A DNA stretch of 64,000 nucleotides from contig NZ_JACCDB010000005.1 of assembly GCF_013432195.1 (NCBI RefSeq), positions 62,001-126,000 on the forward strand, given 5' to 3'. This document shows, piece after piece, positions 437-31,809 of this stretch. Source of the DNA: Tepidicella baoligensis. GTDB lineage: Bacteria > Pseudomonadota > Gammaproteobacteria > Burkholderiales > Burkholderiaceae_C. The notes beneath the pieces are model-generated. The model was not told where the DNA came from, searched no databases, and worked only from the letters and a program-made list of their open reading frames with translations. The position numbers were made by a program, and so were the translations under genes. Every line of letters starts with the position of its first letter. Position 1 is the first letter of the stretch.

Positions 437-466
437 ATTATAAGCCTGCATTGAATTGCCGGTCAA
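437..466 (-). promoter_or_regulatory. sigma70-type promoter of rpsF
   Basis: Read on the minus strand, TTGACC (461-466) and TATAAT (437-442) are separated by 18 bases, close to the consensus. The predicted start near 430 gives a leader of about 58 bases before rpsF. The -35 box overlaps the stop codon of the upstream symporter gene (463-465). This is inferred from sequence only. Confidence 0.8.
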
Positions 467-2601
467 GATCGATGCCGCTCTCCCCCGCTGGACGGCTCCT
501 CCCAGCGGGGCGGGAGCCGGCTGCCACCCCGAACGTATTCGACCAGCGCTTGCACGTGGGCAGGTGGACGGGGCGTGAGCAAACTGACCAGCACCATGAC
601 GGCAAACCCCACGGGCACGCCGAACACGCCGGCCGAAACCGGCTGTATGCCCCACCACAGATCGATTGGAGCCGTGACCCCGAAGGCCGAACGCAACCAG
701 GGCTGGTTGAGCACCATGTAGTAGAACGTGACGCCGAGGCCACTGATCATGCCGGCGACGGCCGCCACGGCGGTGGTGCGTTTCCAGAAAATGCCCAAGA
801 CCAGAGCCGGGAAGAATGCAGCCGCCGCAATGGAAAATGCCGATGACACCAGGAACAGGATATCCGCAGGCTTCTGCGCGGCCACGTAGGCGGCGGCCAG
901 CGCCACCATCAGCAACAGCACCTTGGAGATCGTGACCCGTCGCGCGGTGGCAGCGTTCGGGTCGATCATTTTGTAGTAGAGGTCATGGCTGAGCGCGTTG
1001 GCGATCGTCAACAGCAGCCCGTCAGCCGTGGACAAGGCTGCCGCCAGCCCGCCTGCCGCGACCAGCCCGGCGATCACGTAAGGCAGCCCGGCGATCTCGG
1101 CGGTGGCCAAGACGATGATGTCCGCGCCGATGGAGATTTCGTTGAGCTGCAAGATGCCGTCCAGATTGACATCCTGCACGCGCAACAGGTCGGCATCGAC
1201 ACGGCTCCAGGCGGCCACCCAGGCCGGCAACTGGTCGAAGGGGGTGCCGACGAGCACGTTGAACACCTCGAACTTGACCAGCACCGCCAGAGCCGGCGCA
1301 GTGAAGTAGAGCAGGCCGATGAACAAGAGCGACCAGGTGACGGACTGCCTCGCCTGACGCACATCGGGCACGGTGTAGTACCGCATCAGGATGTGGGGCA
1401 GTGCCGCCGTGCCCAGCATGAGGCAGAACACCAGTGCCAGGAAGTTGCGCCGCGATTCGGTGAAGATTTGGCGCTCCTCCGGACTGCCATGGGGATCTCC
1501 CGCGAAGGGCTGGGCGTGCGGCTGCATCCCGTTGAGCGGCTTCGATTTCGCCTGTGCCTCCGCCAGCTGACGCGTCCACAGTTCGCGCGCACTGGCTTCG
1601 TCGCGGGGCATGCGCGAGAGCGCCTTTTCGGCTTCGGCGATCTCGGAGGCCATGCCGTTGAAGTCGCGCAAGGCATCCAAATGCCGCTCGGCCATTTGAC
1701 GATCGTGCAGCAACGCAGCGCCGGGGTCCTGCAACTTGTCCTCCAGAATGCCCGCTTGGTGTTGGTAGATCATGCGCACCTGGATTTCGGCCTCGTCCTC
1801 GGTCAGTTCACGCTCGCGCTCGGTGATTTTCTGGAGCTGCTGGCCGTAGATCAGTTGCGGAATGGGAAAGCCGGTCTGCTTGATCGACAACCACACCACC
1901 GGCAGCATGTAGGCGATGATGAGGACGATGTACTGCGCCACCTGGGTCCACGTCACGGCGCGCATGCCTCCGAGGAAGGAGCACACCAGAATACCGCCCA
2001 AGCCCAGGAACACGCCGACTTCGAACGCCACGCCCGTGAGACGGGAGGTGATCAGCCCCACCCCGTAGATCTGGGCAACCACGTAGATGAACGAGCACAG
2101 GATGGCCGCGCCTATGCCCAGCAGCCGTGGCCAGTGCCCACCGTAGCGTTCCCCCAGAAAGTCAGGGATGGTGAACTGGCCGAAACGCCGGAGGTACGGC
2201 GCGAGCAGCAGCGCTACCAGGCAGTACCCCCCCGTCCAGCCCAGCACATAAGCCAGCCCGCTGTAACCGTGCACATAGAGCGTGCCCGCCAAGCCGATGA
2301 ATGAGGCGGCCGACATCCAGTCGGCCCCGGTGGCCATGCCGTTGTAGACCGCGGGCACCCGCCGCCCCGCCACGTAGTACTCGACCGGGTCGATGGTGCG
2401 GCTCATGATGCCGATGGCGGCATAGACCCCGATGGTGGCGAGCAGGAAGATCATCCCGATCCACTCGCGGGGCAGGCCAAGCTGTTCCAGCACGGCCAAG
2501 ACACCAACGAACAGAAAAAAAGCACCGGTGAACCACAAATACACCCGGTCCAGCTGGCGCCGGAAGACCTGTTGGGCTTGCGGCGTCATGTCATGAGCCA
2601 T
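463..2601 (-). CDS. sodium:solute symporter, large subunit (VC_2705-type, with long charged insertion)
   Basis: Inner-membrane sodium:solute symporter (SSS family) of 712 residues. The N-terminal half has the family segments, e.g. YYVAGRRVPAVYNGMATGADW followed by APYLRRFGQFTIPDFLGERYG, and many membrane helices follow. Residues about 255-375 form a very hydrophilic Glu/Arg-rich stretch (KITERERELTEDEAE onward) that ordinary SSS proteins lack. Near residue 480 the loop DVNLDGILQLNE matches an EF-hand calcium loop. The gene overlaps the upstream DUF4212 gene by 11 bases, as expected for the two-subunit VC_2705-type symporters. The substrate cannot be read from sequence; acetate or another small carboxylate is a reasonable inference from the family. 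Confidence 0.9.
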   Translation of the reverse strand: MAHDMTPQAQQVFRRQLDRVYLWFTGAFFLFVGVLAVLEQLGLPREWIGMIFLLATIGVYAAIGIMSRTIDPVEYYVAGRRVPAVYNGMATGADWMSAASFIGLAGTLYVHGYSGLAYVLGWTGGYCLVALLLAPYLRRFGQFTIPDFLGERYGGHWPRLLGIGAAILCSFIYVVAQIYGVGLITSRLTGVAFEVGVFLGLGGILVCSFLGGMRAVTWTQVAQYIVLIIAYMLPVVWLSIKQTGFPIPQLIYGQQLQKITERERELTEDEAEIQVRMIYQHQAGILEDKLQDPGAALLHDRQMAERHLDALRDFNGMASEIAEAEKALSRMPRDEASARELWTRQLAEAQAKSKPLNGMQPHAQPFAGDPHGSPEERQIFTESRRNFLALVFCLMLGTAALPHILMRYYTVPDVRQARQSVTWSLLFIGLLYFTAPALAVLVKFEVFNVLVGTPFDQLPAWVAAWSRVDADLLRVQDVNLDGILQLNEISIGADIIVLATAEIAGLPYVIAGLVAAGGLAAALSTADGLLLTIANALSHDLYYKMIDPNAATARRVTISKVLLLMVALAAAYVAAQKPADILFLVSSAFSIAAAAFFPALVLGIFWKRTTAVAAVAGMISGLGVTFYYMVLNQPWLRSAFGVTAPIDLWWGIQPVSAGVFGVPVGFAVMVLVSLLTPRPPAHVQALVEYVRGGSRLPPRWEEPSSGGERHRS

Positions 2602-3761: not shown

Positions 3762-3818
3762 GGTGGGATGTGTACCCGTAGCTTACCAAGCCCGGAAACG
3801 GCGCCGCGTGGGTGTACC

Positions 3819-5306
3819 ATGTCCGCATCCGAGGCCCCCACCACGACCATGCCCGAACAGCCGCAACCCCGCAGCACCGACAACTACGTCAACCTGATCA
3901 CGACCCCCGTGAAGGCCTTGCTCAAGCGACCGGTGGTGTCTCTGCCCCCCAACACACCGATCATCGAAGCGGCACAGACCATGCGAGACCAGCGCGTCTC
4001 CTCGGTGCTCATCGTGCAAGATGGGGTGCTGTTCGGGCTCATCACCGACCGCGACCTGCGCAACCGGGTGGTGGCCGCAGGCATGGATACGCAGCGCCCA
4101 ATCATGGAAATCGCCACGCTCGCGCCGATGACCATCGACATCCACCGCCACGCCTTCGATGCCTTGCTGATGATGGCCCGGCACAACATCCACCATGTGC
4201 CCGTGATGGAGGGCACCCATGTGGTCGGGATGATCACCAGCACCGATCTGACCGAGCAGCAAAGCAACTCGGCGGTGTACCTGGCCGGTGCGATCTACAA
4301 GCAGACGTCGGTGGCCGGGCTGGTCGAGGTCAGCTCCCGCATCAAGCGATTGCAGCAAAACCTCGCCGCGGCCGAGGCCAGCGCCTACAGCACGGGGCAT
4401 ATCGTATCGGCGATCACCGACGCCCTGACCTCGAGGCTGCTGCAGCTCGGGGAGCTGGCATTCGGCCCGCCGCCGGTGGACTACGCCTGGGTGGCTGCCG
4501 GCTCGCAAGGGCGCAATGAGCAGACCGCGAAGTCCGACCAGGACAACTGCATGATCCTCGACGACGCTTACGACGAGCGGGCCCATGGCGAATACTTCCG
4601 GCAGCTCTCGCGCTTCGTTTGCGACGGACTCAACGAATGCGGCTATGTGTACTGCCCCGGCGAGATGATGGCCATGACCGACGCGTGGCGCCAGCCGCTG
4701 CGCAAATGGCGCCAGTACTTTCACCACTGGATCGATCAGCCGGAGCCCAAGTCGCTGATGCTGACCTGCGTGTTTTTCGATCAGCGCTTCGTGTACGGCA
4801 AACAGGATCTGCTCGACAGCCTGCGCGCCGAGGTGCTGCAGCGCACCCGCACGCAGCGGCTGTTCCTCGCCTTCATGGTGGGCAATGCCCTGACCCATCA
4901 GCCGCCACTGAACTGGTGGGGCAACCTCTCGCTGATCCGCGACGGTGAGCACGCCGGCACGATCGACCTGAAACACACCGGGATCGTGCCCATCATCGAT
5001 CTGGCCAGGGTGTACGCACTGGCCGGGGGCTGTGCGGCGGTCAACACGCGGGAACGACTGGAAAACGCCGCCGCCAGCGGGGAAATCACCGAGCAGCGCG
5101 TGCGCGACCTGCTCGACGCGCTGGAATACCTGAGCACGCTGCGCATCCAGCACCAGGCGCGGCGGATGTCGGACGGGCACGCCGCCGACAATTACCTGCG
5201 GCCCAGCGAGCTGTCGAATTTCGAGCGCGGGCACCTCAAGGAGGCATTCGCGGTGGTCAAGAGCCTGCAAGGGGTTCTGGCCCACCGTTACCCCATGAGT
5301 CGCTGA
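3819..5306 (+). CDS. CBS-pair / DUF294 putative nucleotidyltransferase
   Basis: A 495-residue predicted signal-transduction protein. Two CBS domains (about residues 28-85 and 95-150) form an adenine-nucleotide-sensing pair. A DUF294 nucleotidyltransferase core follows with the GlnD-like pattern GSQGRNEQ then KSDQDN (about residues 225-245), and then a DUF294 C-terminal helical domain (about 350-490). Many homologues also carry an N-terminal cyclic-nucleotide-binding domain, which is absent here. The start at MSASEAP is preferred; MPEQPQP 30 bases later is possible, and neither has a clear ribosome site. The gene converges on the exonuclease gene with a 17-base gap. In pseudomonads similar genes sit beside a nuclease and an acetate permease, so the association is conserved. 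Confidence 0.87.
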   Translation: MSASEAPTTTMPEQPQPRSTDNYVNLITTPVKALLKRPVVSLPPNTPIIEAAQTMRDQRVSSVLIVQDGVLFGLITDRDLRNRVVAAGMDTQRPIMEIATLAPMTIDIHRHAFDALLMMARHNIHHVPVMEGTHVVGMITSTDLTEQQSNSAVYLAGAIYKQTSVAGLVEVSSRIKRLQQNLAAAEASAYSTGHIVSAITDALTSRLLQLGELAFGPPPVDYAWVAAGSQGRNEQTAKSDQDNCMILDDAYDERAHGEYFRQLSRFVCDGLNECGYVYCPGEMMAMTDAWRQPLRKWRQYFHHWIDQPEPKSLMLTCVFFDQRFVYGKQDLLDSLRAEVLQRTRTQRLFLAFMVGNALTHQPPLNWWGNLSLIRDGEHAGTIDLKHTGIVPIIDLARVYALAGGCAAVNTRERLENAAASGEITEQRVRDLLDALEYLSTLRIQHQARRMSDGHAADNYLRPSELSNFERGHLKEAFAVVKSLQGVLAHRYPMSR

Positions 5307-5323: not shown

Positions 5324-7519
5324 TCAGTACTTGATGCGGGCGTAATAGGTCTGCTGGGCGGCGTGCAGGGCTTGGCCCAGGGTGTGGATGCCTTTTTCCG
5401 CCAGCAGAGGGATCAGCTTCAGAAACACCTCGGCGGTGACCATGGCGTCCCCCATGGCCGTGTGGCGCCCGATGACCGCGACGTTGAAGCGTTCGGCGAT
5501 CGCTTCGAGGCGGTGCGAGTCCTGGTTCGGATGGACCAAGGCGGACAGCAGGAGCGTATCGAGCACGGGCTGGTCGAAAACGACACCGGAGCGCTTTTCC
5601 TTGAGTTGCAAAAAGCGCATGTCGAACGCGGCGTTGTGGGCCACCAGCACGGTGTCTTGCGCAAAGGCGTGAAATGCCTGCAGCACCTCGGTGATGCGGG
5701 GCTGACCCGCGACCATTTCGGGGGTGATGCCGTGGATGGGAATGGACGCGGGCGGAATCGGGCGCTGCGGATCGACCAATTGCTCGAAGCACTCTTGTCG
5801 CAACAACTTGCCGTTGACGATGCGGGTGGCCCCGATCTGGATGATCTCATCGCCTTGGGCGGGGTTCAACCCGGTGGTCTCGGTGTCGAACACGGTGTAC
5901 GACAGCTCGGTCAGCGGCATGTCTTCCAGGGCTCGGCTGCGGGCCGTGGTGCGGAACAGGTCGAAATCGTAATACTCGGGGCGGCTTTCGCTGCGCACGA
6001 AGGCGGCGCTGTCGAGCTGATCCTGTGGTGTCGCCGAGGGCAGCAGGAAACGGAAGAAGGCCTGGTGGCTGGCCCGGTCACGTTCGAACCAAAAGGCACC
6101 GCCGTGCCGCTCCACCACGTCACGCACCGACAGCGCCGATGCCTCCTGCCCCATCCGCATCGGGTCGATCTCCCAACCCATGACGGTTTCCGTGCTGACG
6201 GCCGGGCCGCTCCAGAGCAGGTCGAGTTCGACCTTCTGCCGCCCCTGTGACGACGCATGCAGGCGCAACCCCACGAAACGGATGTCGAACGCCTCACGCA
6301 GGCGGGCACTGAGATAGACCAGCACCTGCAGGATGGAAAAGCTCTCGATGCGCAACCACAAATGGCCATCCACGCCCATCTCGGAGACGGGAATGCCCAG
6401 GGCTTCCTCGATGCGCCGGCTCGCCGCCGCGATCAGGTCGGCGCCGAGCATATCCTCCATGGGCCAGCGCGTCTTGAGCGCGTCGGCCGACTCGCGCAGC
6501 AGCCGTTGCATGCGCTCCGACATGCCATCCACCTCTTCCCGCACCACGGCCAGGAAACGCTCGCGCATGCTGGGGTCCAGATCGGGATAGTCGAGCATTT
6601 CCAGCGCGGCCTTGATGTTGGCCAGCGCGGAGCGGCTGCCTTCCGTCAACCCGAGCAGCAGCCGTTCCCGGGCGGATTCGTCCTCGAACTCCCGAGTGAT
6701 GTTCTCCAGCATCAACACGAAACCGGCGAGACGGGTGGCGGCGTCGCCCTCCTCGGCGCCTGCGACCGCTCGCACGGGCGCCATTTGCACCCGCAGCAGC
6801 TGTCCGGACCGTGTGGTGGTGACGAACTGCGCCGTGGGGTGAGCGGCGCCCCGCTGCAGGCGCTGCTGCACGCTTTCCAGCGCATGGGCCACGAGCCGGC
6901 GTTCGAACACGGTGTAGATGGATCGACCCAAGCCGATCAGTTCGGCGCCATCGGCCAGCCGCGGGGCCTGGGACATGGCGCGAAACTGCATGCGGGCGCG
7001 GTTGTTGTACAGGAGAATCCGCCCGTCGAGGTTGCAAACCACCACGCTTTGCGTCAGCTCCGACATCAGCGCCGCGAGACGCGATTTTTCCTGCTCGATG
7101 CTCTGGGCCGCCTCACGGACCTTGGCATCCATCTGCCGACGCAACTCCTCGCGCTGACCCACGAGCTGGTTGAACAGCTTGGCGAGTTCACGGGTCTCGA
7201 CGTTGCCCTTGGGCCGCAGCTCCCGCACCACATCGGTCCGCAACAAGACGCGCGCCTCCTCGGCCAACTGGACCGAGGGCGTGACCCAGTGGTCGAACCA
7301 GCGCTTCAGCCCCCAGGCGATCGCGCCCATGCCCATGCCCCAGGTCAGGGACACCAGCACCAGGCGATCCCCGAGCAGGCTCCAGGCGACCTCGCGGGCC
7401 TGCGGATCGAGGGTCGAGCCGATCAGCCAAAAGGTCAGCAACAACCAGACCACCGAGACGGCGGCCGCCACCCCGAGCAGCCACCACAGGCGCCGGTCTG
7501 TGCGACGGGGGCCTGCCAT
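5324..7519 (-). CDS. membrane sensor-like protein (HAMP/PAS/pseudo-kinase) fused to DnaQ-type 3'-5' exonuclease
   Basis: A 731-residue fusion. Two membrane segments (about residues 12-37 and 52-72) are followed by a HAMP-like/coiled-coil linker, a PAS-like domain (about 150-270, with QSVVVCNLDGRILLYNNRA) and a region laid out like a kinase dimerisation and ATPase module (about 290-520). The usual H-box is replaced by GLTEGSRSALANIKAALEML, with no phospho-accepting histidine, and no clear G1/G2 ATP-binding boxes are seen. The C-terminal domain (about 540-710) is a complete DnaQ/PolC-type exonuclease: ExoI FDTETTGL (Asp545), ExoII HNAAFDMRFL and ExoIII HTAMGDAM. The start at 7519 is one base after the response regulator stop, so the two are translationally linked. 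Its target nucleic acid is unknown. Confidence 0.88.
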   Translation of the reverse strand: MAGPRRTDRRLWWLLGVAAAVSVVWLLLTFWLIGSTLDPQAREVAWSLLGDRLVLVSLTWGMGMGAIAWGLKRWFDHWVTPSVQLAEEARVLLRTDVVRELRPKGNVETRELAKLFNQLVGQREELRRQMDAKVREAAQSIEQEKSRLAALMSELTQSVVVCNLDGRILLYNNRARMQFRAMSQAPRLADGAELIGLGRSIYTVFERRLVAHALESVQQRLQRGAAHPTAQFVTTTRSGQLLRVQMAPVRAVAGAEEGDAATRLAGFVLMLENITREFEDESARERLLLGLTEGSRSALANIKAALEMLDYPDLDPSMRERFLAVVREEVDGMSERMQRLLRESADALKTRWPMEDMLGADLIAAASRRIEEALGIPVSEMGVDGHLWLRIESFSILQVLVYLSARLREAFDIRFVGLRLHASSQGRQKVELDLLWSGPAVSTETVMGWEIDPMRMGQEASALSVRDVVERHGGAFWFERDRASHQAFFRFLLPSATPQDQLDSAAFVRSESRPEYYDFDLFRTTARSRALEDMPLTELSYTVFDTETTGLNPAQGDEIIQIGATRIVNGKLLRQECFEQLVDPQRPIPPASIPIHGITPEMVAGQPRITEVLQAFHAFAQDTVLVAHNAAFDMRFLQLKEKRSGVVFDQPVLDTLLLSALVHPNQDSHRLEAIAERFNVAVIGRHTAMGDAMVTAEVFLKLIPLLAEKGIHTLGQALHAAQQTYYARIKY

Positions 7520-7520
7520 C

Positions 7521-7889
7521 TCAGCTTCCCAGCATCTCGCGCACTTTTTCCACCAGCTCACGGGTGGAAAAGGGCTTGGTCATGTAAGCATTGGCACCCA
7601 GGGCCAGCCCCTTGGCCACGTCGGTATCCCGGCCTTTGGCGGTGAGCATGAGGATGCGGGTGTCCTTCACCTGCTCGTGGGCACGGATTTCCTGGCACAC
7701 ATCGAAGCCGGTCTTGCGCGGCATCATCACGTCGAGCAGCACCAGATCGGGGCGATGGGTCAGAATGGCCTCGACGGCCTCCTGGCCATCCCGGGCCAGC
7801 TTCACCTCATAGCCTTCGCGCTTCATGAGGAATTCAAGCGAAATGAGGATGTTGGGCTCATCGTCGGCAATCAGTATCGTGGCGCTCAT
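7521..7889 (-). CDS. single-domain response regulator (CheY-like)
   Basis: A 122-residue receiver domain with no output domain. The acidic pocket is ADDEP at residues 8-12, the phospho-acceptor is Asp53 in LLDVMMP, the switch Thr is in MLTAKG, and the conserved Lys is in YMTKPFS near residue 104. All catalytic residues are present. It overlaps the end of the sensor kinase gene by ATGA and is followed after one base by the exonuclease fusion. It is thus the natural phosphorylation partner of the upstream kinase and a candidate to act on the downstream pseudo-kinase protein by protein contact. Confidence 0.95.
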   Translation of the reverse strand: MSATILIADDEPNILISLEFLMKREGYEVKLARDGQEAVEAILTHRPDLVLLDVMMPRKTGFDVCQEIRAHEQVKDTRILMLTAKGRDTDVAKGLALGANAYMTKPFSTRELVEKVREMLGS

Positions 7890-10648
7890 GCGCGGTCTCC
7901 CATGTCGTGTTCGACCGGCCCGTCGGCCGGCTCATGATGCAAAGGCAGATCAAAGCCAAAACAGGCTCCTTCTCCATCGGTGCTGCGCAGCCACATGCGA
8001 CCGCCGAAATGCTCGACGATCTGGCGGCTGATGGGCAGGCCCAGGCCCGTCCCCTGCGGGCGGCTCAGGCCGTCGCCCCCCTGGCGGAACTTCTCGAACA
8101 CCAAGCCCTGTTCTTCCTTGGGCACCCCGGGACCATTGTCCCGCACTTCCACCACCGCCCGGCCCGCCTGCACGTAGATTCGAACCTGCACCTGCCCGGT
8201 CTGCCGGGGCACGAACTTGGCGGCATTGGAGATCAGGTTCAGCATCACCTGGGTCAGACGGTCGGCATCGGCCAGGATGGGCACCGGGTCTGCAGGCAGG
8301 TCCAGTTGCAGTGTGGCCTCCTTCTCACGCAACAGTTCCGCCGCCGTCTGCGCCGATTGGCGCACCAGCGCCACGAGGTCGAATTCGGCGTTGTGCCACT
8401 CCGCATGACCAGACTCGATCTTGGCCATGTCGAGCACCTGATTGACCAACCGGCTGAGCCGCTCCGATTCCGACACGATGATGCCCAGGAAGTGTTTGCG
8501 ATCCTCCAGCCGAATCTTCGGGTCTTCGAGCATCATTTCCGACAGGGCGCGAATCGCCGTCAATGGTGTTCGCAATTCGTGTGTCACGGAGGACATGAAA
8601 TCGTCCTTCAGCTTGTCCAGACTCTTGAGCTGCTCGTTGGCGGCACGCAGCTCAGCCGTGGCCAGTTCGAGCGAACGCGACTTCTCCTCCAACTCCTGGG
8701 AATGGATGCGCAACCGGGTGGCCTCTTCCAGAATGCCCATCACGTCATCGATGCCGAGGGACTCCTCCTTCACCACCGAAGCCACCATGACACGCGCCGA
8801 CGCGCTGCCGATGGCACCGGCCAATTGCGTCTCGATGAACTGCACCAGTTGGGCATCGGCCTGCAACTGCTCCACACGCTCCAGACCTTGCCGTCGGGCA
8901 TAGGCTTCGAGTTCGGAACGCGCCCTCTCGGGGCCGAGAAAACGCTCGGCCAGAGGCAGCAGATCGGTCAGGTGCGCCTGACCACGCCAGAACACCGGGC
9001 GCGCCGTGCTGGTGCGGCCAAAGACATCCACGAACAGCAGCGCCTGACTGGTTTCACGCGCCGATGGGGTGCGCCACAACGACACCGCCACATAGGCCCC
9101 GACGTTCAACAGCATGCTCCAGAACAGCGAGTGGGTGAGGTTGTCGAGCCCGCTCAGACCGAGAAAGGCTTCGGGCCGTAGCCAGGGATTGCCGAACAGG
9201 CCGTCCACCAGAAAGGCGTCGGACATCCATCCCGACTTGGCCAGCGAAGGCAGTATGAGGGTGTAGGCCCACATGGCAAAACCCAACACCAGCCCGGCCA
9301 TCGCGCCTTGGCGGGTACCACCTTTCCAGTACATGCCGCCAAACAGCGCCGGGGCGAACTGCGCCACCGCCGCGAAACTGATGAGCCCGATGCTGACCAG
9401 TGCGTAGGCCTCACCAGCCAGGTGGTAGTAGGCATAGCCGAGCAGCAGGATCAGCACGATGGCGGCACGCCGGATGTTGAGCAGCCACCGCGTCAGGTCC
9501 CGTCCCTGCGCATGCATCCAGCGCTGCGTGCGCAGCAACACGGGCATGACCAGATCGTTGCACACCATGGTCGAGACGGCGATCGCCTCCACGATGACCA
9601 TGCCCGTGGACGCGGACAGTCCGCCGATGAAGGCGAGCAGGGCCAGTCCGTACCAGCCCTCGGCCAGGGGCAGCGACAGCACGAAGGTTTCGGGGTTCAT
9701 CTGCCAGTCGCCGAAATAGAGCACGCCGCCGAGGGCGATCGGCAACACGAACAGGTTGATCAGCAGCAGGTAGAGCGGGAACACCCAGGCGGCGCGCTTG
9801 AGGTGGCGCTCGTCCACGTTCTCCACCACCATCACCTGGAACTGGCGCGGCAGCAGAATCACCGAGAACATGGCCAGCACGGTCAGGGTAAACCATTGGG
9901 CGTAGGCGAAAGTGCGCCCCTCACCCAGCTTGAGCAGGTTGGCCAGTTCCGGCACCTGTGCTGCCCGCTGGAAAATGTCGCCCACGCCGTTGAACAGCAC
10001 ATAAGACACGAACAGCCCCACCGCGAGAAAGGCCACCAGCTTGACCAGCGACTCGAAGGCGATCGCCGCCACCATGCCCTCATGGCGTTCGGTGCTGTCG
10101 AGGTGACGGGCACCGAAAATCATGGTGAAACCCGCCAGAGCAAGGGCCAGATAGAACGTGCTCTCCTGCCACCACGGCCGCACGGAAGCCAGCGGCTCGC
10201 CCAGCGGGGTGGTGAGCACGGCAAAACCCACCGAAATGCCCTTGAGCTGCAATGCGATGTAGGGCACGATGCCGACGACCGTGATCAGCGTGACCAGCCC
10301 GGCCAGCAGGGGGCTTTTGCCGTACCGGCTGGAGATGAAGTCGGCAATGGAGGTGATGCGGTACGTTTTGGCGATGCGGATCATCTTGCGCAGCACCAGC
10401 CATGCCAGAATCATGGCCAGCATCGGCCCCAGGTAGATCGGCAGGAACCAGACCCCGGAGCTGGCCGCCCGCCCCACACTGCCGAAATAGGTCCAGGCCG
10501 TGCAATACACCGCCATGGACAAGGCATAGACCCAGGGGCTGCCGATGATGGATCGGCCCTGGGCGGCCCGCCAGTCACCGTAGTACGCGATGGCAAACAG
10601 CAGCAGCAGGTAAGCAAAGGAAGCCGCGACGACGAGCAGGGGCGACAT
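7886..10648 (-). CDS. sodium-symporter/histidine kinase hybrid sensor (CbrA/CrbS-like)
   Basis: A 920-residue inner-membrane sensor. Residues 1 to about 490 form an SSS-family symporter-like domain with about 13 helices (e.g. FGARHLDSTERHEGMVAAIA and GGLSASTGMVIVEAIA). A cytoplasmic helical linker and coiled coil (about 560-680) precede a full histidine kinase core: H-box VTHELRTPLTAI (His690), N-box LISNAAKF, G1 VRDNGPGVP, F-box FEKFRQGG and G2 GTGLGLPIS. The family includes CbrA and the acetate sensor CrbS, but unlike CrbS it is paired with a one-domain receiver rather than a LuxR-type regulator. The ligand is unknown. The gene begins 24 bases after a small membrane protein gene and ends overlapping the receiver gene. 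Confidence 0.93.
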   Translation of the reverse strand: MSPLLVVAASFAYLLLLFAIAYYGDWRAAQGRSIIGSPWVYALSMAVYCTAWTYFGSVGRAASSGVWFLPIYLGPMLAMILAWLVLRKMIRIAKTYRITSIADFISSRYGKSPLLAGLVTLITVVGIVPYIALQLKGISVGFAVLTTPLGEPLASVRPWWQESTFYLALALAGFTMIFGARHLDSTERHEGMVAAIAFESLVKLVAFLAVGLFVSYVLFNGVGDIFQRAAQVPELANLLKLGEGRTFAYAQWFTLTVLAMFSVILLPRQFQVMVVENVDERHLKRAAWVFPLYLLLINLFVLPIALGGVLYFGDWQMNPETFVLSLPLAEGWYGLALLAFIGGLSASTGMVIVEAIAVSTMVCNDLVMPVLLRTQRWMHAQGRDLTRWLLNIRRAAIVLILLLGYAYYHLAGEAYALVSIGLISFAAVAQFAPALFGGMYWKGGTRQGAMAGLVLGFAMWAYTLILPSLAKSGWMSDAFLVDGLFGNPWLRPEAFLGLSGLDNLTHSLFWSMLLNVGAYVAVSLWRTPSARETSQALLFVDVFGRTSTARPVFWRGQAHLTDLLPLAERFLGPERARSELEAYARRQGLERVEQLQADAQLVQFIETQLAGAIGSASARVMVASVVKEESLGIDDVMGILEEATRLRIHSQELEEKSRSLELATAELRAANEQLKSLDKLKDDFMSSVTHELRTPLTAIRALSEMMLEDPKIRLEDRKHFLGIIVSESERLSRLVNQVLDMAKIESGHAEWHNAEFDLVALVRQSAQTAAELLREKEATLQLDLPADPVPILADADRLTQVMLNLISNAAKFVPRQTGQVQVRIYVQAGRAVVEVRDNGPGVPKEEQGLVFEKFRQGGDGLSRPQGTGLGLPISRQIVEHFGGRMWLRSTDGEGACFGFDLPLHHEPADGPVEHDMGDRA

Positions 10649-10672: not shown

Positions 10673-10870
10673 TCAGTCGGGGGCCCGTTCCATGATCCAG
10701 GCCAAGGCGCCGATCAGGGCTGCCCAGAGCACGAACAGGGCCAGAGGAAACAGCGCAATGCCCTGCCAGGTCACCTCCTGATCCCACAGGGCGATCAATG
10801 GAAAGTTGAACACCACGCCCGCCGCAAAGAACAGGGCCACCAGGCGCTGGGACACCAGGGTTTCGTGCAT
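10673..10870 (-). CDS. small two-helix membrane protein upstream of the sensor kinase
   Basis: A 65-residue protein (starts MHETLVSQRLVALFFAAGV) with two hydrophobic segments, about residues 9-28 and 36-58, and a short charged C-terminus. The start at 10870 is set by a GAGGAG ribosome site upstream. It is the first gene of the sensor operon, 24 bases ahead of the kinase gene. Its size, topology and position recall the DUF485 or DUF4212 small partners of symporters, so it may be a small partner of the symporter-like sensor domain. I cannot assign a named family. Confidence 0.75.
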   Translation of the reverse strand: MHETLVSQRLVALFFAAGVVFNFPLIALWDQEVTWQGIALFPLALFVLWAALIGALAWIMERAPD

Positions 10871-10991
10871 GGTTGTCTCCTCGATCACGAAGCGAGCCGG
10901 TCGGCTCCACGCCACGTCTGCAGCTATTGTGCACCGAACGGGCTTACCCTCCACTTACCGCGCCCCTGCGGGGGCGGCGACGTGCGCAGGC

Positions 10992-11040: not shown

Positions 11041-13434
<2,394 letters not shown>

Positions 13435-13592
13435 GGTTGGACTCCAAAGTTGAAAAACCTGCAAGCCACCCCGCGCCGTCACCCCGATCGTTGTTCTGTT
13501 GTGGGAGGTGCCGGAAGCCAGGCGACAAATCTGGATAATGGGCGTGATTGTAGGTCCTGGCCTCCTCAACCCCGCCCCCGGCAGCTTCCACC

Positions 13593-14402
13593 ATGCCCCA
13601 TCGCACCGCTTTCTTCATCTCTGACGGCACCGGCATCACGGCCGAAACCTTTGCCAAGGCCATCTTGGCGCAATTCGAGATCGACCCCAAGCGCGTGCGG
13701 CTGCCCTTCATCGACGACCCGGACAAAGCCTGGCAGGCCGTGCGCCAGATCAACCATGCGGCCGAAGTGGACGGGCGGCGCCCGCTGGTGTTCACCACCG
13801 TGGTGAACATGGACGTGCTGGCCGTGCTGCGGGCCGAATGCAAGGGCATGCTGATCGACATGTTCGGCACCTTCATCTCCCCGCTCGAACAGGAGTTGGG
13901 CATGAAGTCGAACCACCGGGTGGGCCGGTTTTCCGACGTGTCCAAAAGTCAGGAGTACCACGACCGGATCGAGGCCATCAACTTCACGCTCGACCACGAT
14001 GACGGCCAGACGAACGAAGATCTGGAAAAGTCGGACGTGATTCTGGTGGGAGTGAGCCGCAGCGGCAAGACGCCGACCTCGCTCTACCTGGCGATGCAGT
14101 TCGGCCTGAAGGCATCGAACTACCCGCTGATCCCGGAAGATTTCGAGCGCCGCGCCCTGCCTCCGGCACTGGTGCCGTTCAAGAAGAAGCTGTTTGGGCT
14201 GACCATCGACCCGGTACGCCTGAGCGAAATCCGCAACGAGCGGCGTCCCAATTCACGCTATGCGAGCCTGCAGAACTGCCGCTACGAGGTAGCAGAAGCC
14301 GAAGCCATGATGCGGCGCGCGGGCATCCGCACGCTGTCGACGACCACCAAATCGATCGAGGAAATCGCCACCATCATCCGCCAGGACCTGCATCTGGAGT
14401 GA
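13593..14402 (+). CDS. ppsR: PEP synthase regulatory protein (bifunctional kinase/phosphorylase, DUF299)
   Basis: A 269-residue protein of the DUF299 family. It inactivates PEP synthase by ADP-dependent phosphorylation of an active-site threonine next to the catalytic histidine, and reactivates it by phosphate-dependent removal. The start is [19 protein letters not shown]; the P-loop-like motif [11 protein letters not shown] lies near residue 153; the C-terminal region contains [19 protein letters not shown]. It is divergent from ppsA with a 158-base spacer that must hold both promoters; I see no convincing boxes there. The genetic pairing makes the target clear. Confidence 0.96.
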
Positions 14403-15864: not shown

Positions 15865-17718
<1,854 letters not shown>

Positions 17719-30641: not shown

Positions 30642-30724
30642 GGCAGAAACAAAAGCAGATCGCCCTCACCGCCTTCCCCGACAGTGCATGGGCATCACAG
30701 CCGTGCGCGACGCGCAAGGCCACC

Positions 30725-30940
30725 TCGCTGGCCGGTATCCGGGCTGGTGGAAACAACCTTCGTCGCCTTCCCGGAGGCCCGAAGGCCGCCAGTGGCGTGG
30801 GGGACGAAAGCGGGGCCGCACAAGCGACCCGTCCACTTACCGTTGCGGGGGCAGCGCTGGTTAGCGCGTGTCTGGTCACAACCACGCACCTCCAGCTTCC
30901 CGTTTAACCGCTGCCCAGGAACCGGGCAGCGAGCACCAAC
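30725..30940 (-). promoter_or_regulatory. cobalamin riboswitch of the btuB-cobT operon
   Basis: On the minus strand the conserved elements occur in order: GGTTAAACGGGAA (30897-30909), the long core CCAGCGCTGCCCCCGCAACG continuing into GTAAG (30836-30860), GCCACTG (30790-30796), GGGAAGGCG, and the B12 box AGCCCGGATACCGGCC (30730-30745). These match the adenosylcobalamin-binding aptamer. Just past the box, GGCCA and TGGCC (30729-30733 with 30718-30722) can form a hairpin using the last bases of the box, a candidate for the alternative switch fold. B12 would be expected to repress the operon. With its flanks this element fills the 356-base gap between btuB and the zapB-like gene. Confidence 0.95.
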
Positions 30941-30982
30941 ATCTCACATTCTAGCTCGTCCACGCCTGGAGCCCCACGGCCC

Positions 30983-31607: not shown

Positions 31608-31611
31608 CGGG

Positions 31612-31788
31612 GTGTCTGCCGTGGGCGTTGGGCTTTATATTTCCTTGAACCAATGCTCTTCGAGCCCGGGCTTGGTACATTGCGCAGTGGGTGTGAGCGT
31701 CTCGCGTCAGATGAACCCGAAGCTGCGCTGCCCTCGCCCACCTGAACCCCCACGTTCAGGATGACGGTCCGGCACCACGGCAGACACC
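31612..31788 (+). ncRNA. ssrS: 6S RNA
   Basis: Regulatory RNA that binds sigma70-RNA polymerase by mimicking an open promoter and accumulates in stationary phase. The ends form a perfect 13-base closing stem: GTGTCTGCCGTGG (31612-31624) pairs with CCACGGCAGACAC (31775-31787). Between them lies the expected long hairpin with a large internal bubble; the ends are marked by GGGCGTTGG on the left and GACGGTCCGGCA on the right. It lies directly downstream of zapA, its usual place. A short T-rich run follows at 31793-31799. Exact ends were not determined. Confidence 0.93.
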
Positions 31789-31809
31789 CTTCATTTTTCT
31801 CCCTGTTGC

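Follow-up and report, generated by a model that had tools for sequence, protein, structure and literature searches.

An exonuclease-pseudokinase fusion family linked to a symporter-kinase and a receiver-only response regulator in Tepidicella baoligensis and its relatives

The window analysed here is the whole stretch of 64,000 nucleotides from Tepidicella baoligensis (RefSeq assembly GCF_013432195.1, contig NZ_JACCDB010000005.1, positions 62,001 to 126,000 of the forward strand), and coordinates are given as positions within it. An open reading frame on the reverse strand (5324-7561) encodes an exonuclease-pseudokinase fusion for which homologues were found. Translation most likely starts at ATG 7501, 19 bases past the stop of a response regulator gene, which gives a protein of 725 aa (5324-7501); the alternative GTG start at 7561 would give 745 aa and overlap the regulator gene. 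The latter (7521-7889, reverse strand) encodes a receiver-only response regulator of 122 aa with no output domain, as judged by Pfam and response regulator alignment. It overlaps the 3' end of a gene for a CrbS-like sodium:solute symporter-histidine kinase (7886-10648, reverse strand), in which the H-box and ATP boxes are intact by Pfam (SSF 27.4, HisKA 67.8 and HATPase_c 96.9 bits) and hhalign. A small hydrophobic ORF of 93 aa (10673-10954, reverse strand) lies directly upstream of the symporter-kinase. Convergent with the fusion gene, a CBS-DUF294 putative nucleotidyltransferase was assigned by Pfam (3768-5306, forward strand). The surroundings also hold genes for phosphoenolpyruvate synthase (11041-13569, reverse strand), the PEP synthase regulatory protein PpsR (13593-14402, forward strand) and two VC_2705-family sodium/solute symporters (463-2601, reverse strand; 15865-17718). 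Farther along the window, a cobalamin riboswitch (30713-30955, reverse strand; 72.7 bits) and a 6S RNA (31610-31789, forward strand; 47.3 bits, barely above the cut-off of 46.4) were detected.

The fusion was modelled with AlphaFold2 by using a 51-row alignment (mean pLDDT 84.7, pTM 0.38), which was taken in place of a discarded single-sequence model (mean pLDDT 39). The model places two N-terminal helices, a long helix, a PAS domain, a hairpin (residues 269-303/310-342), an alpha/beta domain (residues 349-489) and a DEDDh exonuclease in that order, and so bears out the sensor-kinase layout of membrane helices, PAS, helical hairpin and ATPase-like region given in the preliminary description, the helices being putatively membrane helices. 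These N-terminal helices span residues 2-30 and 33-88 (7238-7498; all domains on the reverse strand) and were assigned from the model and the sequence. The long signalling helix or coiled coil covers residues 101-147 (7061-7201; model), and weak HAMP matches were found in this region in single relatives. The PAS domain (residues 150-267, 6701-7054) was assigned from family Pfam matches and the model; PAS_4 was matched at E<=0.1 in 17 of 25 family members and below threshold in the window copy. The DHp-like hairpin (residues 269-342, 6476-6697) was assigned by the model, phmmer and hhalign, and the CA-like domain of ATPase fold (residues 346-490, 6032-6466) by the model and alignments.

The exonuclease domain (residues 530-716, 5354-5914) was identified by PF00929 (RNase_T; 131.3 bits, cut-off 24) and by PolC/DnaQ structures. 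It resembles the DEDDh 3'-5' exonucleases of the PolC/DnaQ type in sequence (PolC 2p1j, phmmer E 7.3e-32) and in the model (9qpc, Z 25.1, 1.7 A across 192 residues), and it has both the RNase_T fold and the D-E-D-H-D set (D539, E541, D627, H680, D685). The VIA-align structure list consists entirely of exonucleases and says nothing on the kinase-like part. Unlike PolC and DnaQ, the fusion lies outside any polymerase, is putatively membrane-tethered and carries a PAS-pseudokinase regulator. All catalytic residues had been described as kept in the window copy; this proved true and extends to 145 of the 148 rows of the family alignment that reach the domain (L018 and L135, which end at contig edges, are left out of this count; L denotes loci throughout). 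The catalytic residues are lost in L041, L042 and L043, from one gammaproteobacterial family; these proteins, identical ones being found in L168 and L169, look like pseudokinase-pseudonuclease fusions. A defence role was considered and rejected: PADLOC yielded DEDDh-type models only, which are explained by the nuclease domain, and neither the plasmid search (35 records at E<=1e-30) nor the phage search (14 records at 1e-20, none reaching 80% coverage) gave a defence lead.

The kinase-like module scores weakly against Pfam. HisKA reached 13.3 bits on the window fusion (cut-off 26.9) and E<=0.1 in 9 of 25 family members (best E 0.00086); HATPase_c was absent from the best 25 of the 26 Pfam families listed for 25 fusion members. 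Structure comparison was more telling, as the best Foldseek matches of the fusion model were the kinases WalK (9a5d, E 4.2e-20) and VicK (4i5s), followed by PolC-type nucleases, with low whole-chain TM-scores because the model is flexible and multidomain. The hairpin matched VicK 4i5s by phmmer (E 1.2e-4), and the module aligned by hhalign with the DHp-CA part of the symporter-kinase (probability 99.4, 216 columns; profile of 53 relatives and the window's own). As judged by these profiles and the model, the module has a DHp-CA fold and descends from a histidine kinase. Its closest relative in the genome was sought among the 19 HisKA matches other than the fusion itself (20 with it). With the whole-module HMM the neighbouring symporter-kinase came first (51.2 bits, runner-up 21.4), as it did with the hairpin profile (40.8 bits, runner-up 26.5); the CA profile alone was indecisive, with the symporter-kinase at 8.4 bits, fourth when the fusion is counted, and two other kinases at 10.2 and 10.0. 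Such closeness would follow from duplication of the symporter-kinase or from a kept docking surface.

The segment that takes the place of the H-box, GLTEGSRSALANIKAALEML, covers residues 283-302 counted from ATG 7501 (about 6596-6655; first placed at 6600-6665). Profile alignment with the neighbouring true kinase, in which TEGSRSALANIKA stands over THELRTPLTAIRA, identifies it as the H-box and puts Glu287 (6641-6643) at the histidine site. Homologues were collected by similarity to the window fusion, a search that a very distant intact ancestor could escape. Matches were obtained in 15 of 150 genomes of the order, 23 of 369 of the class and 52 of 398 of the phylum, the own genome counted and some through the nuclease part only; named genomes were treated as loci (best 80 of 532 relatives), and the nearest named homologue among the matches listed was that of Tepidicella xavieri (88%). 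The resulting family alignment has 150 rows of related sequences, hence the counts are of sequences and not of events. The histidine site carries a letter in 141 of these rows: E in 105, D in 14, Q and R in 5 each, A in 4, T and L in 2 each, and V, N, M and H once each. The single histidine belongs to L152 (Desulfatitalea), in which the arginine at +3 is absent and the ATP site is equally degenerate. Tryptophan (Trp430) occupies the G1-box Asp column in all 144 rows with a letter, and the second N-box Asn column holds Arg in 89 of 143 rows and Asn in 3. A GTGLGL-like G2 box was found at the aligned place in none of the 150 rows; a loose regular expression gave one match away from that place (GSGIGL in L052). 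The phospho-accepting histidine and the N, G1 and G2 boxes of a histidine kinase are thus missing from the fusion, as the preliminary description had held for the H-box and the G boxes; it had proposed aligning homologues and named an intact H-box with an ATP site as what would speak for a simply mutated copy, and no such homologue turned up (140 of 141 rows lack the histidine, and the exception is ATP-dead). The E-x-x-T/N pattern is a phosphatase motif, and the H+1 and H+4 columns are unlike a retained one. The module is otherwise conserved, with the H-box arginine Arg290 in 136 of 143 rows, Trp382 in 139 of 143 and Trp430 throughout. Family-wide loss with strongly conserved replacement residues indicates a conserved pseudokinase and not a mutated copy, so the view that loss of kinase function is specialisation rather than decay gains support. 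By alignment and model, the DHp-CA module is a pseudokinase across the family, with neither phospho-acceptor nor ATP site.

Gene neighbourhoods were compared at the named loci (best 80 of 532 relatives), several of the counts being limited by contig ends. At 44 of the 80 the symporter-kinase is encoded on the same strand no more than 1.5 kb upstream, at 55 a response regulator precedes the fusion by up to 700 bases, and at 49 a DUF294 gene lies within 6 kb; all three occur together at 30. In each of the 55 adjacent regulators, 0-9 residues lie beyond the receiver domain. Among all loci, named or not, that have at least 700 bases upstream, an adjacent response regulator was found at 105 of 133 module-bearing loci vs 1 of 10 module-less loci (Fisher 1.9e-5, kinship ignored); loci with a shorter upstream stretch as well as truncated and partial ones (L017, L028, L031, L046, L168; L095, L100, L106, L136, L137, L145, L147) are left out of this count. 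The phospho-accepting Asp and the Lys are kept in all 105 adjacent regulators. At the module-less loci (L156-L165) a DUF294 gene lies within 6 kb in all 10 cases, which suggests that the nuclease and the DUF294 protein were associated first and that the kinase/regulator pair joined them later as an input. One of these loci, L156, lacks the module, yet a kinase and a receiver-only regulator are present. The alphaproteobacteria L193-L197, which have module-less exonucleases, all carry (5 of 5) a 40-44% similar symporter-kinase with a nearby receiver-only regulator elsewhere in the genome. On a plasmid of Paracoccus aminovorans (L047) the genes for the DUF294 protein, a small ORF, the symporter-kinase, the regulator and the fusion stand in line on one strand. 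Two congeneric genomes (L024/L045 and L025/L044) have two fusion copies each, all with good hairpins, one copy per genome lying beside the kinase/regulator pair and the other alone. The delta-proteobacterial symporter-kinases L183-L186 are encoded by ORFs of about 1071-1074 residues (920 in the window) and match residues 5-704 only.

Genomes were searched for the kinase at the 18 named module-bearing loci without an adjacent regulator. It was matched in 12 of them, five of these matches being distant (45-47%), and in none of the remaining 6 (L116, L117, L119, L120, L126, L138). The hairpin HMM score is low in these six, and the PAS, CA and nuclease scores are ordinary. The N-terminal membrane part also scores lower in rows without a regulator, so that the effect is not confined to the hairpin in every such row. 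For further genomes, whether the kinase would be present was then predicted from the hairpin in writing before the search. The kinase was found at 53-58% in four genomes with good hairpins for which it had been predicted (G083, G030, G217, G347). Where absence had been predicted, no kinase was found in G020, G472, G200 and G442, and distant partial matches (35-38%) were found in G338 and G362. The predictions for G030, G217 and G347 were not blind, since a regulator next to a second copy was known beforehand; those for G083 and the negatives were.

The median DHp/CA ratio of pairwise identities was 0.69 in the kinase-less members (n=12, with G338 and G362 and their distant partial matches counted) vs 0.99 in the regulator-linked members (n=104 of 105, one without an aligned row, L018 or another, being missing; p 3e-8), and 1.02 where the kinase and regulator sit elsewhere in the genome (n=12). 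None of the 12 kinase-less members exceeds the 5th percentile of the regulator-linked ones in this ratio. The PAS/CA, CA/EXO and PAS/EXO ratios were alike in regulator-linked (101 rows) and kinase-less (9) members (p 0.15, 0.26 and 0.76); L152, the five other delta-proteobacterial rows and, by way of the identity bound, L043, L168 and L169 are left out of this comparison and included again in the DHp/CA analysis. A genome-wide search in 9 of the 12 kinase-less genomes gave no matching regulator in any of the 9 (best 74.6-89.5 bits, 36-40% identity); in kinase-bearing genomes it reached at least 156 bits and at least 59% identity in 11 of 11. On the best tree the kinase-less label requires 6 changes, at least 3 of which are imposed by branches with good support, which points to several separate events, though few. 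In the Rubrivivax rivuli protein (L126) only the hairpin is deleted, from between the PAS domain and the CA-like domain, which starts with WPLEDM; in the latter the Trp, His and Arg positions are intact. There are exceptions: the hairpin has diverged in L152 (ratio 0.49), in which the kinase and regulator lie elsewhere; the ratio is low in three of the five other delta-proteobacterial rows, which have a distant kinase only; and it is merely mildly low in the kinase-less L119 and L033.

The open-licence PMC literature searched held no description of an exonuclease-pseudokinase fusion. The nearest known arrangement is Caulobacter DivL, in which a response regulator docking module and a PAS domain give sensing of DivK~P (PMC5361649, used in part). 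Like DivL, the fusion combines a PAS domain with a histidine kinase fold whose histidine is replaced (by Tyr in DivL); a single-domain regulator, the partner of DivL, is its candidate partner as well, by genetic linkage and by joint loss with hairpin decay. Unlike DivL, which acts on the separate kinase CckA, it has the nuclease fused in cis; its histidine site is mostly Glu in the family, its putative partner is a symporter-kinase encoded nearby, and regulator binding, demonstrated for DivL, is predicted here by analogy. The neighbouring kinase resembles CrbS of the CrbS/R (MxtR/ErdR) acetate system, in that it joins a symporter domain and an intact kinase in one protein. CrbR/ErdR binds promoters and activates genes, whereas the window regulator consists of a receiver domain only and probably acts through a neighbouring protein. 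The targets of CrbS/R include a CBS/nucleotidyltransferase-type protein and an RNase_T exonuclease (PMC5715377, PMC9927547, each used in part). In Pseudomonas putida the putative RNase_T exonuclease PP_0353 is encoded downstream of the CBS-domain protein PP_0354 in an operon and is controlled by MxtR/ErdR; its deletion delays growth on pyruvate, and it is not required for normal growth on acetate or succinate (PMC9927547). Like the window fusion, PP_0353 is an RNase_T protein encoded beside a CBS-domain protein; compared by description, in the part of that source used, it differs in being reported with an RNase_T match and no kinase-like part.

A hairpin that is needed only with the kinase/regulator pair, beside a receiver-only regulator and within an inactive kinase fold, suggests a role like that of DivL with DivK. 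The upstream symporter-kinase would phosphorylate the receiver-only regulator, which would dock on the DHp-like hairpin; the change would reach the nuclease via the conserved pseudo-CA domain and turn the enzyme on or off. The signal would run backwards relative to a normal kinase, as in DivL with DivK~P, with a nuclease in the same chain as the output. From the analogy with DivL and the conservation pattern, we place even confidence in such docking and gating in cis. Retention of the pseudo-CA domain where the hairpin is lost suggests that it is coupled to the nuclease, which is the most likely arrangement. The complete pathway is put forward tentatively, at a little under even confidence: it would run from symporter-kinase to regulator to pseudokinase hairpin to membrane-bound exonuclease, ending at a nuclease and not at a promoter, and the hairpin (regulator input) and pseudo-CA domain (nuclease coupling) would be separable and independently lost. 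L156, the alphaproteobacterial L193-L197 and several delta-proteobacterial members, L152 among them, do not fit this mechanism.

The hairpin may instead pair with that of the symporter-kinase, forming a heterodimer by which the kinase is tuned or the nuclease recruited to it, the regulator not being a direct partner. Its profile is closest to that very hairpin, and its conservation follows the occurrence of both the kinase and the regulator; since the two are lost together, the loss pattern cannot discriminate between them as hairpin partner. No interface signal emerged from mutual information between regulator and module (95 pairs, effective 65.5), and known specificity residues of the regulator were not found in the literature searched. 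The frequent output-less regulator within 700 bases upstream (55 of the 80 named loci, best 80 of 532) needs a target, a point that is not decisive, and we consider the heterodimer rather unlikely. The DHp fold serves dimerisation, and some relatives have membrane helices and a nuclease but no module, so the module could be a passive kinase-derived dimerisation or spacing element, under selection for the geometry of the dimer, in a nuclease that answers to PAS ligand or membrane signals only; this gives no reason for specific decay upon loss of the kinase and regulator, nor for the linkage to a receiver-only regulator, and is distinctly improbable. It is very unlikely that the fusion tunes the kinase circuit by binding the phosphorylated regulator as a sink or stabiliser, the nuclease being an independent function of the polypeptide. 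What the H+1 and H+4 columns show would suit such a role, yet the regulator has no other known output and the pseudo-CA domain is conserved past hairpin loss, as if coupled to the nuclease. A precedent for a sink is that DivL stabilises DivK~P (PMC5361649). That the window copy is a decayed kinase with a functionless module is scarcely credible: the loss of the kinase motifs speaks for it, but the family-wide extent of that loss and the strongly conserved substitutes in the alignment already contradict it.

With regard to physiology, the context points to acetate- or pyruvate-dependent turnover of some nucleic acid as the likely role: the nearby PEP synthase, PpsR, VC_2705-type symporters and DUF294 protein, together with the PP_0353 precedent, make acetate/pyruvate control of the nuclease the likeliest. 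What is new is the family-wide scope, the link to a receiver-only regulator, the decay of the hairpin with loss of the kinase and, relative to DivL, the nuclease in cis. Whether other bacterial two-component systems reverse signal flow is a question raised in the DivL paper (PMC5361649). If the DivL-like mechanism holds, the fusions would exemplify reversed flow in a widespread and operon-linked form, with an enzyme output in the same chain, for which the natural hairpin losses are ready comparisons. The receiver-only regulator would gain a target, and the link between the CrbS/R-controlled exonuclease and growth on pyruvate (PMC9927547) would gain a mechanism. Carbon-source sensing would then act directly on RNA or DNA turnover.
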